A stretch of 64,000 bases of DNA from Phytoactinopolyspora halophila (GTDB lineage: Bacteria > Actinomycetota > Actinomycetes > Jiangellales > Jiangellaceae): contig NZ_QMIG01000002.1 in NCBI RefSeq assembly GCF_003287285.1, positions 1 through 64,000 of the forward strand, given 5' to 3'. A program made the translations under genes and the position numbers. The notes under the pieces were generated by a model, which had not been told where the DNA came from, searched no databases, and was given only the letters and a program-made list of their open reading frames with translations. Below are positions 6,965 through 57,984 of the stretch, piece by piece; positions within the stretch are counted from its first letter, which is position 1; each line of letters starts with the position of its first letter.

Positions 6965-6985
6965 GCACCCGAACGTTGGTACGTT

Positions 6986-7029
6986 TTCTCGGACCGTGAC
7001 AAGGCTGTAAGCGTGTCACGGCCCGAGAA
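6986..7029. repeat. Family A dispersed palindrome, copy 1
   Basis: Arms TTCTCGGACCGTGACA (6986-7001) and TGTCACGGCCCGAGAA (7014-7029) pair with one mismatch around a 12-nt loop. The flank GGTACGTT (6978-6985) is shared with the copies at 45252-45299 and 57903-57948. It lies 21 nt past the asd stop. It may act as a terminator or mRNA stabiliser, but there is no T-run, and its recurrence argues for a mobile or REP-like element. Confidence 0.75.
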
Positions 7030-16566: not shown

Positions 16567-18984
16567 ATGTCGTTCGATCCCTCCGCCATCGCTGCGAACA
16601 TCCGTAGGCTCTTCCTCGTCATCGGCGTCAGCGCCCTGTGCGGCATTCTCATGGCCGGCCTGGCACTACCCGTCGTGGGCGCCCTCGGGCTCAGCGCCCG
16701 AGAAAGTGCCAACGCGTTTCGCAACATGGAGTTCGACTTCGAGCCGGGCCAACTGTCCGAGACATCCGAGGTCGTCGACGAATCGGGGCGGACGCTCGCG
16801 ACGTTCTTCGAGGAGAATCGTGAGTACGTGGAGCTGGACGACATCGCCGACGTCGTCGTCGACGCGACGCTAGCTGTCGAGGACGATCGATTCTTCGAGC
16901 GAGGCCCCATCGACTTCCAGGGAACGCTGCGGGCCCTGGTCAGAAATCTCCAGTCAGGCGAGACCGAAGAGGGCGGCTCGACCCTGACGCAGCAGTACGT
17001 CAAGCAGGTCCGCCTCTCCCAAGCCGAAACGGCCGAGGAACGAAATGAGGTGCTGGCCAGCACCGGTGTCGAGGGGTACCGGCGCAAGCTGGAAGAGCTG
17101 CGCATGGCGGTCAGCGTGGAGAAGGAGTACACCAAGGAGGAGATCCTCGAGCGCTACCTCAACATCGCCTACTTCGGCTCGCGCGCCTACGGGATCGAAG
17201 CGGCCGCGCAGACGTACTTCTCCACCAGTGCCTCGGATCTCACCCTCGAAGAGGCTGCCTTGCTGGCGGGAATCGTGCAGAGCCCGAACCGACACGACCC
17301 AAACCGCAACCCGGAGGCCGCGCTCGGCCGCCGGAACGTCGTGCTTACTCGCATGGCCGACACTGGGATGATTTCCGAGGAGGAGGCAGCCGAGGCGCGC
17401 CAGACCGAGATCGAACTCGATCCCACCGACGTCTCGAACGGCTGCGTCGACTCCTGGGCGGGCTTCTTCTGCGACTATGTGGTCAACGAGATCCGTACCA
17501 TGGAGGAACTCGGAGAGACACCGAAGGATCGTGAGTACGCACTCTACAACGGCGGCTTGACCGTGGAGACCACGATCGATCGCGACGCGCAAGAGGCTGC
17601 TGACGACGCCGTCTCCGACTACGTCGCCGCTACCGACGAGGCGGTCGGCTCGCTGGCATCGGTCGAACCCGGCACGGGATACGTGCGCGCCATCGCCAAC
17701 TCGCGCGAATACGGTCTCGAGGGTGAGGGAGTCAGCAACATCAACTACGCGGTCAACCGCGACATGGGCGGCGGCGCCGGAATGCAGCCGGGCTCGTCGT
17801 TCAAAGCCTGGGTGCTCGCGGCTGCCATCAATCAGGGCATCAGTCTCGACACGTCGATCGACTCGCCGGCCCAGATGAACATTCCGGAGGACAACTTCTC
17901 CACGTGCGAGGGCACCTACCGGAGCAACGGTTCCTGGAGCGTCGGCAACTACGACGACAGCGGCGGCAGCTTCAATCTCCGCTCGGGGACCGAACGTTCT
18001 GTGAACACCTTCTATGCCCAGCTCGCCGAGCGGACCGGGCTGTGTGAACCCGCCAGAATCGCGCAGGATGCGGGGGTTACCCGTGCCGACGACGGCGGCG
18101 ATCTGCAGCAAGTGCCATCATTCCCGCTCGGCGTCAACGAGGTCTCCCCCCTTGCCATGGCCGGCGGGTACGCCATGTTCGCCAACCGTGGAGTGTTCTG
18201 CGAGCCTTCTGCGGTCCTCACCGTCAAGGACCGCGACGGTGAGACGTTGGTCGACCATTCCGACCCGGATTGCGAGCGTGTCCTCGAAGAGCCCGTCGCC
18301 GATGCCGTCACCTCGGTTCTCGAGGGCGTCGTGCACAACCCCGGTGCCACGGGAAATCGCATGCAGCTCGAGGGTGGGCGCCGCGCCGCTGGAAAGACCG
18401 GAACCACGAACGATTCCGTTTCCGTCTGGTGGGTGGGGTTCGTGCCGCAGCTGTCCACTGCCGTCGCGGTCGCCGACGTCGAAGCCCCACAAGAGTCCCT
18501 GAGCGGGAACACGTTCAACGGCCAGAGCATCGATCCTTGCGGTGGCTGCATCCCGGGCCCCATCTGGAAGCAGATGATGGATGAGACGCTCGAGGGTGAA
18601 TCGAATGAAGACTTCAACGAGCCCGACAGCAGCGTCATCGAAGGTGTCAGCACCAGCGTTCCGGACGTTCGTGGCATGGATGCCGACGACGCGATGGACG
18701 CATTGGGCGACGCGGGTTTTTCCGCGTCCGTAACGGAGCGGATCAATTCTGACTTACCCGAGGGCCAGGTGGTCCGAACCGATCCAGGTGCAGGCTCCGA
18801 TGCCCCGTCAGGAACTGACGTTCGATTATATGTGAGCAACGGCGTGCCACCTGGCGGCGACGATGACGACGACGATGATGACGATGATGACGACGACATT
18901 CCGGGCGAACGGCCGACGTTACCACCGGATCCGCCCGGCAATGACGATGACGACGATGATGATGACGACGACGGCTGGAGCTGA
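16567..18984 (+). CDS. ponA2: Bifunctional penicillin-binding protein with PASTA domain
   Basis: Class A PBP of 805 residues that polymerises and cross-links peptidoglycan. After an N-terminal membrane helix (LFLVIGVSALCGILMAGLALPVV) comes the GT51 transglycosylase domain, with catalytic E105 in AVEDDRFFERG and the EGGSTLTQQYVKQ motif at 135-147. The transpeptidase motifs are SSFK (S410, K413), SVN (478-480) and KTGT (610-613). One PASTA domain spans about 655-760 (SVPDVRGMDADDAMDALGDAGF). The C-terminus is two poly-aspartate runs split by a Pro-rich linker. It is divergent from whiB4, as in mycobacteria. Confidence 0.94.
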   Translation: MSFDPSAIAANIRRLFLVIGVSALCGILMAGLALPVVGALGLSARESANAFRNMEFDFEPGQLSETSEVVDESGRTLATFFEENREYVELDDIADVVVDATLAVEDDRFFERGPIDFQGTLRALVRNLQSGETEEGGSTLTQQYVKQVRLSQAETAEERNEVLASTGVEGYRRKLEELRMAVSVEKEYTKEEILERYLNIAYFGSRAYGIEAAAQTYFSTSASDLTLEEAALLAGIVQSPNRHDPNRNPEAALGRRNVVLTRMADTGMISEEEAAEARQTEIELDPTDVSNGCVDSWAGFFCDYVVNEIRTMEELGETPKDREYALYNGGLTVETTIDRDAQEAADDAVSDYVAATDEAVGSLASVEPGTGYVRAIANSREYGLEGEGVSNINYAVNRDMGGGAGMQPGSSFKAWVLAAAINQGISLDTSIDSPAQMNIPEDNFSTCEGTYRSNGSWSVGNYDDSGGSFNLRSGTERSVNTFYAQLAERTGLCEPARIAQDAGVTRADDGGDLQQVPSFPLGVNEVSPLAMAGGYAMFANRGVFCEPSAVLTVKDRDGETLVDHSDPDCERVLEEPVADAVTSVLEGVVHNPGATGNRMQLEGGRRAAGKTGTTNDSVSVWWVGFVPQLSTAVAVADVEAPQESLSGNTFNGQSIDPCGGCIPGPIWKQMMDETLEGESNEDFNEPDSSVIEGVSTSVPDVRGMDADDAMDALGDAGFSASVTERINSDLPEGQVVRTDPGAGSDAPSGTDVRLYVSNGVPPGGDDDDDDDDDDDDDIPGERPTLPPDPPGNDDDDDDDDDDGWS

Positions 18985-21225: not shown

Positions 21226-21282
21226 CCCATGATCATGAACACCTATCGGCCTATGTGGCCGATTTGTGTTCATGATCATGGG
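21226..21282. repeat. Family B dispersed palindrome, copy 1
   Basis: Exact 17-nt arms CCCATGATCATGAACAC (21226-21242) and GTGTTCATGATCATGGG (21266-21282) enclose a second stem ATCGGCC/GGCCGAT with a 5-nt loop. The outer arms share CCCATGATCATGAAC with the copy at 30574-30631, whereas the loop sequences differ completely. It sits between the arsA pair and the ABC permease, exactly where the conserved gene order is interrupted. Confidence 0.85.
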
Positions 21283-29365: not shown

Positions 29366-29851
29366 GTGAACGGTGAGACGACCAGTTCGGCAGCGAGTCC
29401 GGAACAGCGGCTGGAGGAGCTCGGTCTCACGCTCCCTTCGGTGGCGGCGCCGGTCGCCGCCTACGTGCCGGCTGTCCGTACCGGTCCGTATGTCTACACC
29501 GCGGGCCAGCTTCCCCTCCGAGACGGGGAGCTGGTCCGCACGGGAAAGGTGGGCGCCGAGGTCAGTCCCGAAGAGGCGTACGAATGCGCCCAGCAGTGCC
29601 TGCTCAACGCACTCGCTGCGGTGCACGCCCAGGTAGGTGACCTGTCCGCGGTGGCGCGCGTGGTGAAGATCGTCGGCTTCGTCGCCTCGGCGCCAGGGTT
29701 CACGGCGCAACCGCAGGTGATCAACGGAGCCAGTGAACTGGTCGGCCAGGTCTTCGGAGCGGCCGGCCAACATGCCCGCAGCGCGGTGGGTGTCGCAGTG
29801 TTACCCCTCGACGCTCCCGTGGAAATCGAGTTGATCGCCGAGGTCCGGTGA
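29366..29851 (+). CDS. RidA family enamine/imine deaminase
   Basis: Protein of 161 residues from GTG 29366. RidA proteins hydrolyse reactive 2-aminoacrylate and related enamines. Family segments: PSVAAPVAAYVPAVRTGPYVYTAGQLPLRDG, YECAQQCLLNALAAV, VARVVKIVGFVASAPGF, ARSAVGVAVLPLDAPVEIEL. The catalytic arginine of RidA (normally in the RxxxxV segment) corresponds to the R in HARSAVGVA. It overlaps the Nudix gene by 4 nt and is part of the conserved ridA-nudix-MBL-crp run. Confidence 0.9.
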   Translation: MNGETTSSAASPEQRLEELGLTLPSVAAPVAAYVPAVRTGPYVYTAGQLPLRDGELVRTGKVGAEVSPEEAYECAQQCLLNALAAVHAQVGDLSAVARVVKIVGFVASAPGFTAQPQVINGASELVGQVFGAAGQHARSAVGVAVLPLDAPVEIELIAEVR

Positions 29852-30624
29852 CGTCCGCCAGGAAGCTGCCTCCCTCCTCCGCGGAGCGGGCACGGGCGTT
29901 CGTCGCCGGCCGGCTCCCACCCGTGGAGCCGCGGCCGGCGTCGACGGTCGTGCTCGTGCGCGATGCGCATGCCGGACTCGAGGTCTACGTCCAGCAGCGG
30001 GTGCACGGCATGGCGTTCGCCGGTGGCATGGTCGCGTTCCCCGGCGGCAGTGTCGATGCCGCTGACACGGCCGGACACCGGGACATCGACGCGGCCACCT
30101 GGGCACGCCGGCTGGGGACGGGCGAGGATGCCGCCCGCGGATTCGTGGGTGCCGCGCTGCGCGAGACCCGGGAGGAGACCGGCGTCGCGTTACAGCCGGA
30201 CGATCTGGTGCCCTGGGCACACTGGATCACCCCGCGATTCGAACGCCGGCGTTTCGACACCTGGTTCTTCGCGGCCGAGCTTCCACGCGGGCAGGAGCCT
30301 CAAGACGTCTCCGGGGAGGCGGAAGCGGCGATGTGGGTGACGGCCCACGAGGCATTGCGGCGTGCTGACGCGGGTGAGTGGGACATGCTTCCGCCCACCC
30401 GGGTGGTTCTCGAAGAGCTCGCGGGGTTGTCCAGCGCCACGGACATCCACGCGACGCAGCGGGAGATCGCGGCAGTCATGCCGGGATGGCTCGACGACGG
30501 CGACGCCGTCATCGCCCTGCTCCCCGACGACCCCCGCTACCCGGGCGACGACCACGCCGCCACGACCCATCACCCCATGATCATGAACGATCCTCGTCCT
30601 GAGAGCGGGGGTAATCGTTCATGA
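29848..30624 (+). CDS. Nudix hydrolase (NUDT7/19-like)
   Basis: Protein of 258 residues. The Nudix box is split in the manner of the NUDT19 group: AFPGGSVDAADTAG, then an insertion of about 25 residues, then GAALRETREETGVAL (RExxEExGU). Likely a nucleoside-diphosphate or CoA-ester hydrolase; the substrate is unknown. Its final 19 codons are encoded by and next to the family B palindrome, whose second arm supplies the TGA stop (30622-30624). That stop overlaps the start of the next gene by 4 nt (ATGA). Confidence 0.85.
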   Translation: MTSARKLPPSSAERARAFVAGRLPPVEPRPASTVVLVRDAHAGLEVYVQQRVHGMAFAGGMVAFPGGSVDAADTAGHRDIDAATWARRLGTGEDAARGFVGAALRETREETGVALQPDDLVPWAHWITPRFERRRFDTWFFAAELPRGQEPQDVSGEAEAAMWVTAHEALRRADAGEWDMLPPTRVVLEELAGLSSATDIHATQREIAAVMPGWLDDGDAVIALLPDDPRYPGDDHAATTHHPMIMNDPRPESGGNRS

Positions 30625-30631
30625 TCATGGG
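30574..30631. repeat. Family B dispersed palindrome, copy 2
   Basis: Exact 18-nt arms CCCATGATCATGAACGAT (30574-30591) and ATCGTTCATGATCATGGG (30614-30631) flank a 22-nt loop. The arms share 15 nt with copy 1 at 21226-21282. Here the element overlaps coding sequence: it encodes the end of the Nudix protein, the TGA stop, and the first ATG of the following gene. Confidence 0.88.
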
Positions 30632-31430
30632 ACAGGGGGCGAGTGGGGGTGCCGAGGGCCTGCCGGGCTGGTGCCATCTGATCCGGGCCGACAATCCGAG
30701 CCCGATGACGCTCGAAGGCACCAACACGTACGTCCTGTCCACCAGCGCGGGCAACGTCGTCATCGATCCTGGCCCGCTGATCGAGGATCACCTGCGGGCC
30801 GTCGCGTCGCTGGGTGCGGTGGCACTGACGGTTCTCACCCACCATCACCCCGATCACACCGAGAGTGCGCAACGCTTTCACCAGCACACCGGTGCGCCGG
30901 TCACCGCCCTGGACCCGGACCTGTGCATCGACACCGAGCCCGTGAGCGACGACGAGCAGATCGCGATACCCGACCTCGACCTACGCGTCCTCCACACCCC
31001 CGGGCACACGGCAGATTCCATCTGCCTGGAGGTCCGCCGTGGTTCCTGGCGCGGGTTGCTCTGCGGCGACACCATCCTCGGGCGTGGCACGAGCGTCGTC
31101 GCACACCCCGACGGCCAGCTCGGTGCCTACCTCGACTCGCTGGCCAGGCTTCGCGACCGGCTCAGCGGTGACTGGATGCTGCTGCCCGCCCACGGACCGG
31201 TCCGGGCCGACGCCGTCGGCGTGATCGAGCAGTACATCGCCCACCGGCACGCACGGCTCGACGAGGTACGCGCGGCACTCGCTAGCGGCGCAACGTCTGC
31301 TCGCGAGGTGGTGGAGATCGTCTACTCCGATGTGGATCGTTCCGTGTGGCCAGCAGCGGAGCGCACGGTCGCCGCCGCCCTCGATTACCTCACTGGGGCG
31401 GAGAAGCCCACGAATGCGGCGGGGGAATGA
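30621..31430 (+). CDS. Metallo-beta-lactamase fold hydrolase
   Basis: Protein of 269 residues from ATG 30621 (or ATG 30627). Zinc ligands: THHHPDH (HxHxDH), then H in TPGHTADS, D in LLCGDTILG and H in LPAHGP. The family N-terminus is usually near HLIRADNPSPMTLEGTNTYV, so the first 20 residues (MIMGQGASGGAEGLPG) appear to be an addition made by the family B palindrome. Activity of the glyoxalase II/LACTB2 type is likely, substrate unknown. It is convergent with crp. Confidence 0.88.
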   Translation: MIMGQGASGGAEGLPGWCHLIRADNPSPMTLEGTNTYVLSTSAGNVVIDPGPLIEDHLRAVASLGAVALTVLTHHHPDHTESAQRFHQHTGAPVTALDPDLCIDTEPVSDDEQIAIPDLDLRVLHTPGHTADSICLEVRRGSWRGLLCGDTILGRGTSVVAHPDGQLGAYLDSLARLRDRLSGDWMLLPAHGPVRADAVGVIEQYIAHRHARLDEVRAALASGATSAREVVEIVYSDVDRSVWPAAERTVAAALDYLTGAEKPTNAAGE

Positions 31431-31455
31431 AGCCCACTGGCGCCGAGACTGCTGC

Positions 31456-32133
31456 TCAGCGAGCCCGGCGGCGCATCCGCTCGACATCGAGCAGGACCAC
31501 CGAACGCTGTTCGAGACGCAGCCAGCCGCGCGCCACGAAGTCGGCGAGTGCCTTGTTGACCGTCTCTCGGGACGCGCCGACCAACTGGGCCAGCTCCTCC
31601 TGAGTGAGATCGTGCACCACTCGCACGCCCTCCTCGGAAGGGACGCCGAAACGCGTGGACAGATCGAGGAGCTGCTTGGCGACGCGTCCCGGAACATCGG
31701 AGAAGACCAGATCCGCGAGGGTGTCATTGGACCGGCGCAGCCGGGAGGCAAGCTGCAACAACAAGCCGCGCGCCACCTCTGGACGTCCGGTGAGCAAGGG
31801 GACAAGGTCGGAGTGTCCCAGGCCGAGCAGGCTCGTTTCCGTCACTGCCGTGGCCGTCGCCGATCGGGGTCCCGGATCGAACAGGGACAGTTCCCCGAAC
31901 ATCTGACCCGGTCCCAGCAGCGCGAGGAGATTCTCCCGCCCGTCTTGCGCAGTACGACCAAGCTTGATCTTGCCAGCGGTCACGACGTACACGCGGTCGC
32001 CGTCGTCGCCTTCGCGGAACACCACCTCGCCACGGTCGAGATGCACCTCGACCATCGAGGCCCGCAATGCGGCGGCCGCCTCATCGTTCAGTTCACGGAA
32101 CAGCGGTGCGCTGCGTAGCGCATCATCAACCAC
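31456..32133 (-). CDS. crp: cAMP receptor protein family regulator
   Basis: Protein of 225 residues from GTG 32133, chosen because AAGGAG lies 7 nt upstream and the product VVDDALRSAPLFRELND has the family N-terminus. The cyclic-nucleotide domain contains EGDDGDRVYVVTAGKIKLGR and the phosphate-binding cassette FGELSLFDPGPRSATATA. The helix-turn-helix is HDLTQEELAQLVGASRETVNKALADF. It closely resembles mycobacterial Crp (Rv3676) in memory and context (beside nth). It probably binds TGTGA-N6-TCACA sites; one candidate is in the cstA promoter at 49478. Confidence 0.93.
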   Translation of the reverse strand: MVDDALRSAPLFRELNDEAAAALRASMVEVHLDRGEVVFREGDDGDRVYVVTAGKIKLGRTAQDGRENLLALLGPGQMFGELSLFDPGPRSATATAVTETSLLGLGHSDLVPLLTGRPEVARGLLLQLASRLRRSNDTLADLVFSDVPGRVAKQLLDLSTRFGVPSEEGVRVVHDLTQEELAQLVGASRETVNKALADFVARGWLRLEQRSVVLLDVERMRRRAR

Positions 32134-44184: not shown

Positions 44185-45237
44185 GTGACCGACACCACGA
44201 TGGCCCGCGAGATCGCCGAACAGCCGGCGGCGCTCGCGCGCACCCTGCAATCACTCCGGCCGCAGCGCGCAGCCCTGAACAGGCTGGCAGGCGACACCCG
44301 TGCCGTCCTGTTCGTCGCTCGTGGCTCATCGGACAACGCCGCCGTGTACGGTCGCTACCTGCTGGAGGTGCACGCGGGCCGGCCCAGTGGCCTGGCCGCA
44401 CCGAGCGTCGCCACCCACTACGCCGCCGAGCTCGATCTCTCCGGTGTGCTCGTCGTGTCGGTCTCGCAGTCAGGTGAGACGCAAGAGATCGTCGAGACGC
44501 AAGCCTGGGCCGCCACACGAGGCGCGCGCACCGTCGCGGTGACGAACGACGGCTCCAGTTCGCTGGCCAACGCTGCCGACCTCGCGCTCGTGACGGAGGC
44601 GGGTACCGAGGTCGCGGTGCCTGCCACGAAGTCCTACACCGCCCAGCTCGCCGCCATGGCCATCCTGGCGGGAGGGCTCTCGGCACGTACCGACGCTCTC
44701 GACGCGGACCTCGACCGGGTGCCTGATGAGGTCGAGCGCCTCATCACGGCCCGCGCGGGCGTCGACGCCGCCGCCACGCAGCTCGCCGCCACGAACGAGG
44801 CACTCGTCAGTGGCCGCGGGCTGACGTTCGGCACCGCGCTGGAAGCGGCCCTGAAGCTGGAGGAGACCTGCCTGCGACCGGTCCGCGGGCTCTCCTACGC
44901 CGATCTGCGGCACGGACCGATCGCCGTGGTCGACGCGGATCACGTCGCCCTCCTCGTCACTGCGGCAGACGGGCCGATGGTCCCCGGAATGACCGAACTG
45001 GCGCACGACCTTCGTCGTCGCGGCGCCGCCGGTGTGGTCGGCATTGGCGGCGATGCCGGCTTCGGGTCGGCCGTCGACGTAGCCGTCCCCGGCCCCGAAC
45101 TTTCCGAACCGATCGCGCCGCTGGCTCTCATCGTGCCCGCACAGCTTATGGTCGAGACGCTCGCCCGCAAGCTCGGGCTGGATCCAGACGAGCCCCGCGG
45201 GCTGTCCAAAGTCACCCAAACCGACCCGTCAGAATGA
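44185..45237 (+). CDS. SIS-domain aminosugar isomerase/deaminase
   Basis: Protein of 350 residues from GTG 44185, preceded by GAGGAG. It consists of two SIS domains like the isomerase half of GlmS, without the glutaminase domain. Motifs: RAVLFVARGSSDNAAVYGRYLLE, VVSVSQSGETQEIVE (phosphosugar loop SQSGET), VPATKSYTAQLAAMAIL and the C-terminal GLSKVTQT with catalytic-type lysine. It is probably a glucosamine-6-phosphate deaminase of the NagB-II type or related. The divergent GntR regulator supports amino-sugar metabolism. The stop codon lies at the edge of a family A palindrome. Confidence 0.86.
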   Translation: MTDTTMAREIAEQPAALARTLQSLRPQRAALNRLAGDTRAVLFVARGSSDNAAVYGRYLLEVHAGRPSGLAAPSVATHYAAELDLSGVLVVSVSQSGETQEIVETQAWAATRGARTVAVTNDGSSSLANAADLALVTEAGTEVAVPATKSYTAQLAAMAILAGGLSARTDALDADLDRVPDEVERLITARAGVDAAATQLAATNEALVSGRGLTFGTALEAALKLEETCLRPVRGLSYADLRHGPIAVVDADHVALLVTAADGPMVPGMTELAHDLRRRGAAGVVGIGGDAGFGSAVDVAVPGPELSEPIAPLALIVPAQLMVETLARKLGLDPDEPRGLSKVTQTDPSE

Positions 45238-45251
45238 TCATGTTTGGTACG

Positions 45252-45299
45252 TTTTCTCGGGCGATAACACGGCTGCAGACGTGTTACGGCCCGGGAAAA
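45252..45299. repeat. Family A dispersed palindrome, copy 2
   Basis: TTTTCTCGGGCGATAACACG (45252-45271) and CGTGTTACGGCCCGGGAAAA (45280-45299) pair with a few mismatches. The flank GAATGATCATGTTTGGTACG (45232-45251) is nearly the reverse complement of the flank of copy 3 at 57949-57968. The SIS gene stop codon falls inside this flank. Confidence 0.8.
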
Positions 45300-45447
45300 C
45301 CACCTGACGCTCTGACCCATGGGGCTCGCCGTCGTGCCATGCCTTGCACGCTGAGTCCACGTAAGCAAGCGCTTTCCACCGCCAATCGACGGGTAACGGG
45401 CGTGCACGGCACGGGGCTCCCGCGGGTACCGCACGGGGCTCCAGCGC

Positions 45448-46206
45448 GCACCGCACGGGGCTCCAGCGCGCACGGGCACGGGCACGGGGCTCCAGCGGGC
45501 ACCGCACGGGGCTCCAGCGCGCACGGGCACGGGCACGGGGCTCCAGCGGGCACCGCACGGGGCTCCAGCGCGCACGGGCACGGGCACGGGGCTCCAGCGG
45601 GCACCGCACGGGGCTCCAGCGCGCACGGGCACGGGCACGGGGCTCCAGCGGGCACCGCACGGGGCTCCAGCGCGCACGGGCACGGGCACGGGGCTCCAGC
45701 GGGCACCGCACGGGGCTCCAGCGCGCACGGGCACGGGCACGGGGCTCCAGCGGGCACCGCACGGGGCTCCAGCGCGCACGGGCACGGGCACGGGGCTCCA
45801 GCGGGCACCGCACGGGGCTCCAGCGCGCACGGGCACGGGCACGGGGCTCCAGCGGGCACCGCACGGGGCTCCAGCGCGCACGGGCACGGGCACGGGGCTC
45901 CAGCGGGCACCGCACGGGGCTCCAGCGCGCACGGGCACGGGCACGGGGCTCCAGCGGGCACCGCACGGGGCTCCAGCGCGCACGGGCACGGGCACGGGGC
46001 TCCAGCGGGCACCGCACGGGGCTCCAGCGCGCACGGGCACGGGCACGGGGCTCCAGCGGGCACCGCACGGGGCTCCAGCGCGCACGGGCACGGGCACGGG
46101 GCTCCAGCGGGCACCGCACGGGGCTCCAGCGCGCACGGGCACGGGCACGGGGCTCCAGCGGGCACCGCACGGGGCTCCAGCGCGCACGGGCACGGGCACG
46201 GGGCTC
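45448..46206. repeat. 51-bp minisatellite, about 15 identical copies
   Basis: The unit consists of GCACCGCACGGGGCTCCAGC, GCGCACGGGCACGGGCACGG and GGCTCCAGCGG in tandem. It repeats with an exact 51-nt period from 45448; the CACGGGCACGGG core recurs 15 times between 45471 and 46185. Because 51 is a multiple of 3 and the unit has no stop in most frames, long frames stay open on both strands (for example a 17-residue HGHGHGAPAGTARGSSA repeat on the plus strand), but I do not regard these as genes. A degenerate half-unit precedes the array at about 45409-45447. Recent expansion is implied by identity of the copies. Confidence 0.93.
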
Positions 46207-57851: not shown

Positions 57852-57902
57852 GCACGCTTGCCGCGCCAGGTGCGCCGCACCACGTGCGCCGCACCACCAG
57901 GA

Positions 57903-57948
57903 TTTCTCGGGCCGTGACACGTCTGCAGGCGTGGTACGGCCCGAGAAA
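57903..57948. repeat. Family A dispersed palindrome, copy 3
   Basis: Arms TTTCTCGGGCCGTGACACG (57903-57921) and CGTGGTACGGCCCGAGAAA (57930-57948) pair with two mismatches. The right flank ACGTACCATACATGATCATT is the reverse complement of the left flank of copy 2 with one change, so the two copies are inserted in opposite orientations. It lies at the convergent end of the membrane-protein and hspR genes. Confidence 0.82.
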
Positions 57949-57984
57949 ACGTACCATACATGATCATTCAGAGGCGGCGGTGAG

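Follow-up and report, generated by a model that had tools for sequence, protein, structure and literature searches.

The 64,000-nt stretch of the Phytoactinopolyspora halophila genome analysed here (the window) carries a Nudix hydrolase gene followed on the same strand by a gene for a metallo-beta-lactamase-fold (MBL) hydrolase, and the junction between the two is occupied by a palindrome of a dispersed family, referred to below as family B (Table 1). The Nudix frame enters the left arm of the palindrome, crosses the loop and stops at a TGA in the right arm, where it overlaps the MBL start codon. The first-pass annotation had placed a dispersed palindrome at this junction and had its right arm supply both the Nudix stop and the MBL start; both statements are borne out by the open reading frames, and the palindrome is missing from most relatives.

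Table 1. Features of the Nudix-MBL junction, with the second family B copy in the window.
Feature	Position	Strand	Remarks
Nudix hydrolase gene	29848..30624	+	NUDIX PF00293 (Pfam); last 16 residues from palindrome
58-nt dispersed palindrome (family B copy 2)	30574..30631		ends CCCATGATCATGAACGATC...GGTAATCGTTCATGATCATGGG
Left arm CCCATGATCATGAAC	30574..30588		Nudix frame P M I M N, open
GGGGG in palindrome, upstream of MBL start	30607..30611	+	putative weak ribosome-binding-like stretch
In-frame TAA in palindrome, just 5' of MBL start	30612..30614	+	closes MBL frame upstream
Right arm GTTCATGATCATGGG	30617..30631		holds Nudix TGA and MBL ATG
ATGA	30621..30624	+	MBL start overlapping Nudix stop
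MBL-fold hydrolase gene	30621..31430	+	Lactamase_B PF00753 and C-terminal BLACT_WH (Pfam)
Second in-frame ATG, right arm	30627..30629	+	sole other ATG/GTG/TTG before MBL core
Family B copy 1	21226..21282		second copy in window

Residues 243-258 of the Nudix protein are encoded by the palindrome. The tail past the conserved PGDD is 23 residues long; most Jiangellaceae relatives have 5-9 there and L023 has 12, so that the gain is about +14 to +18 residues. The tail is thus longer, as the first-pass annotation had it, although the palindrome itself encodes 16 residues, the proposed figure of about 19 having included its neighbouring bases. The accompanying expectation that element-free orthologues have shorter ends agrees with most Jiangellaceae tails, but not with L022, an element-free relative with a tail of 19 residues, which argues that the length of the Nudix tail is not tightly constrained. 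Of the MBL gene the palindrome itself encodes only MIM, plus two bases of the codon that follows. A conserved tryptophan lies at residue 17 here, at 12 in L013, at 14 in L014 and at 9-10 in several Jiangella, from which we estimate a gain of about 3-8 residues and not the 16-20 suggested earlier. Between the upstream TAA and the conserved core, the two ATGs of the right arm are the only canonical starts in the MBL frame, and the palindrome therefore provides the MBL start, barring use of a non-canonical one.

The palindrome is predicted to form a hairpin of -37 kcal/mol. Folding of its 91-nt surroundings gave -49.1 kcal/mol, against -32.7 +/- 3.6 kcal/mol for shuffles (z -4.5). In predictions that leave co-transcriptional folding and proteins aside, the MBL start codon has an unpaired probability of 0.00 in the folded leader and of 0.60 without the left arm; across seven orthologues the predicted values range from 0.17 to 0.97. 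No Rfam family reached its gathering score for the palindrome, the sub-threshold matches being four to microRNA families and one to MAT2A_A, and a known RNA family was discarded as its identity.

Family B is present in about 160 copies in this genome, where the arms, allowing up to two mismatches, are matched 165 + 162 times in 5.04 Mb compared with 0 + 4 times for a reversed control pattern. Matches occur in 22/22 Jiangellaceae genomes, in some of them near the control level; the family is abundant in Phytoactinopolyspora-like and several Jiangella genomes and sporadic elsewhere in the class, with mostly 0-2 matches in other actinomycetes. We surveyed the 69 copies with the best-preserved arms, calling the genes around them with a simple gene finder that relies on codon scores. 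These copies show almost no variation in the end arms TGATCATGAAC; the inner stem is variable, with a complementarity, out of 12 pairs, of 7.4 within a copy against 6.1 between copies. Co-directional genes flank 42 copies, convergent genes 15 and divergent genes seven, and four copies lie inside called genes. Of the 42 co-directional copies, 36 are closer to the upstream stop than to the downstream start (p = 1.4e-6), and the upstream stop falls at a median of 7 nt inside the element. Of 38 stops inside copies, 20 are a TGA at arm positions 5-7, six are a TAG or TAA at positions 18-20 and the far arm holds two, including the stop of the window's Nudix gene; the stop most frequently supplied is the TGA of CCCA-TGA-TCATG. 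Called starts fall inside only three or four of the 69 copies, and some may be miscalled. As a rule, family B copies occupy gene 3' ends, and the stop often comes from them; a start in addition is rare. Supply of a start is possible because ATGATCATG is present in each arm, and the frame CCC ATG ATC ATG AAC is often open right through the copies. A search largely confined to the open-access literature returned no description of the family, which is apparently an undescribed REP-like family. We also noted palindrome copies near contig ends in the window's genome (G000), within the first 90 bases of contigs C14, C30 and C48 and the last 90 bases of C17; several contig ends lie about 70-90 nt from a copy, so the repeat may cause breaks in the assembly.

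A second dispersed palindrome family, family A, reaches about 88 nt (TGATCATGTTTGGTACG...CGTACCAAACATGATCA) and occurs in the window at 6976-7029, 45234-45299 and 57900-57969, its copies being mostly 86-96% identical to the copy at 45232. Family A and the junction palindrome have TGATCATG ends in common, which the copy at 6976 lacks. We read about 30 copies, from 30 entries that include one chance match (a second arm in L270). In them 11/11 gene stops within the ends are the TGA of TGATCATG, among them that of a SIS-type sugar isomerase-like gene of the window (44185-45237). The arms in L270 are 1.2 kb apart, and we considered whether family A ends bound an autonomous IS there; this was rejected, the second arm being the chance match, in a transporter-like gene. 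Just 3' of a family A palindrome lies a tandem array of about 15 copies of a 51-nt unit (45431-46206, 99% identical), open in several frames on both strands, and elsewhere in the window GACGAC/GATGAC repeats (18847-18971) would encode Asp-rich tracts.

MBL orthologues were collected from 21/22 Jiangellaceae genomes (among them that of the window) and from 80 loci of a public genome collection, nearly all of other actinomycetes. A -4 overlap is usable at 72 of the 85 loci where a Nudix gene was detected upstream (38 GTGA, 33 ATGA and 1 TTGA). Among distinct element-free loci with an upstream Nudix gene the count is 68/80, mostly GTGA or ATGA, where the denominator is what is left, by subtraction, once the window, the palindrome-bearing loci and one duplicate record are set aside. 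The overlap is available in the Jiangella genomes and in the close relatives L013 and L014, which are without the palindrome. Its prevalence in element-free relatives argues that the coupling architecture is ancestral.

The first-pass annotation had proposed that the insertion coupled two genes that were not coupled before, and the position of both stop and start codon within the palindrome is what would be expected in that case. The element-free junctions, those of the closest relatives included, offer the overlap nonetheless; on this evidence we rejected the proposal, which now seems very improbable. The comparison of junctions indicates that the ancestral RTGA overlap was replaced by the palindrome's own ATGA, and that the two genes do not owe their link to the palindrome. 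We think it likely that a REP-like palindrome came to lie across an ancestrally coupled Nudix-MBL junction, where the -4 overlap persists in new letters and MBL translation would depend on that of Nudix. In untranslated RNA the MBL start codon would be buried in the stem. Ribosomes on Nudix would unwind the hairpin, removing the left-arm pairing, and finish at the ATGA, where they may re-initiate for MBL, whose translation would then require ribosomes on Nudix to get as far as the right arm, a dependence no weaker than the earlier one. As the start lies inside a very stable predicted hairpin, MBL translation probably needs ribosomes coming from Nudix. One study describes ATGA overlaps as a way in which translation of adjacent genes is coupled in other prokaryotes (PMC6728339). 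Selection may have acted to keep the coupling, but is not proven, since a random meeting of the Nudix and MBL frames with those of the right arm would give a -4 overlap in about 1/9 of cases. The -37 kcal/mol hairpin might instead lower MBL expression or terminate the transcript. A role as terminator or attenuator of transcription, separating the two genes, would suit the very stable stem, the location at gene 3' ends and the 15/69 copies between convergent genes, but no U-run follows the stem, on which ground we discarded an intrinsic terminator, and 0 terminator-like sites were found at 29700-31600. The palindrome also sits inside a translated frame, where translating ribosomes are expected to disrupt the hairpin, at a junction that overlaps in most relatives, and we regard this role as distinctly improbable.

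How the palindrome reached the junction can be considered across six related genomes, four of which (G000, G017, G018 and G019) bear one of 57-58 nt there, that of G018 and G019 being of the same kind; G020 and G021 have a plain GTGA overlap and no palindrome. The G017 palindrome (58 nt) forms 22/28 possible pairs, a value reached by 0/2000 junction shuffles, and is matched by a second G017 locus at 83% over 59 nt; this genome has its own subfamily, with arms CATCGAC/CATTGAC. The ATGA lies in the right arm in G000 and in the loop in G017. In G019 the left half holds the stop, and the start stands apart from it, 3' of the palindrome beside GGAGG, with 48 nt from TAA to GTG. The arrangement in G018 resembles that of G019 if its N run is read by homology, which puts the Nudix stop in the left arm; the literal length of the run would permit a downstream TTGA overlap. 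At this junction (L015) 29 N adjoin the palindrome, and the Nudix end there is uncertain.

One history, compatible with the explanation given above, is a single old insertion in an ancestor of the G000 genome and Phytoactinopolyspora, inherited by the four bearers, lost in G020 and G021, and with stop and start codons rewired in each line. It is plausible, at a little under an even chance. Palindromes of like size at one junction in 4/6 genomes speak for it, as does the finding that sharing is unusual, no examined relative sharing the insertions at the DAHP synthase and AroB sites. The G017 arm type resembles that genome's own subfamily, however, as an independent insertion would give, and in a four-gene tree the order of lines has support of 24-49, which does not separate single from repeated insertion. 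Repeated independent insertion by an element preferring stop or RTGA sites is possible, if somewhat doubtful, and would account for arm types that vary among the lineages, for the 20/38 in-element stops at arm positions 5-7 and for the uniform TGA stops of family A. Against it, the AroB frame of most relatives closes about five codons earlier, at a TAG, and a TGA stop was therefore probably not the site of that insertion; no empty-site pair defining a target was recovered. The relatives' junctions are too diverged to yield a clean empty site in which a target-site duplication could be read. A broader idea, that families A and B with their shared TGATCATG ends are mobile elements that target stop codons (TGA or RTGA), restore TGA and ATG, and spread through coupled operons without breaking them by means of an enzyme other than RAYT, we consider unlikely.

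If, as we favour, the palindrome entered a junction that was already coupled, the case illustrates that even tight coupling at a junction leaves room for a dispersed repeat, with the reading arrangement unbroken. The several stop/start arrangements of this one junction in six related genomes form a natural series bearing on the tolerance of coupling to insertions. Should the shared ends mean stop-codon targeting, this would be a sign that actinomycetes harbour a mobile element system so far unrecognised.

Among known systems, GTAG/CGTC REPs are short, high-copy palindromes near gene 3' ends, mostly between co-directional or convergent genes, and supply of stop codons is already known for GTAG REPs (PMC3733652). 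Family B is likewise short and high in copy number, lies near 3' ends, mostly between co-directional or convergent genes, and supplies stops, but its arms (CCCATGATCATGAAC) end without a GTAG or CGTC tag, and it is 57/58 nt long with long conserved arms and a stop that is mostly TGA. The REP-type tyrosine transposase (RAYT, PF01797) gave 0 matches in the genome, with the control positive in 5/14, and a RAYT-driven REP was rejected as this Y1 transposase is absent. With MITEs family B shares terminal inverted repeats and dispersed copies; among the loci read, no transposase flanked by family B arms was noticed. Mycobacterial interspersed repetitive units (MIRUs) are not known to be palindromes, are often in tandem and bring a small ORF of their own; the description of their -4 coupling reportedly stems from Supply et al. 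1997. Family B copy 2 resembles them in its place at a start codon and its -4 coupling, which is rare among family B copies. Unlike in MIRUs, the upstream Nudix gene itself reads through the palindrome, in place of a small ORF belonging to the repeat, and the start lies in the stem. One source presents MIRUs as seemingly mobile repeats at start codons, whose -4 nt stop/start keeps the downstream gene coupled (PMC12548453). Rickettsia palindromic elements measure about 150 bp and in many cases form in-frame fusions with ORFs; a gene that receives one encodes a protein with additional residues (PMC10969869). The junction palindrome is likewise a palindromic repeat that adds residues, but it does so at the end of a gene and gives a stop and a start. 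Finally, the junction has the same -4 architecture as the ATGA overlapping pairs that are described as coupled by termination-reinitiation (PMC6728339); unlike in those pairs, the ATGA here belongs to a dispersed repeat and sits in a hairpin stem.
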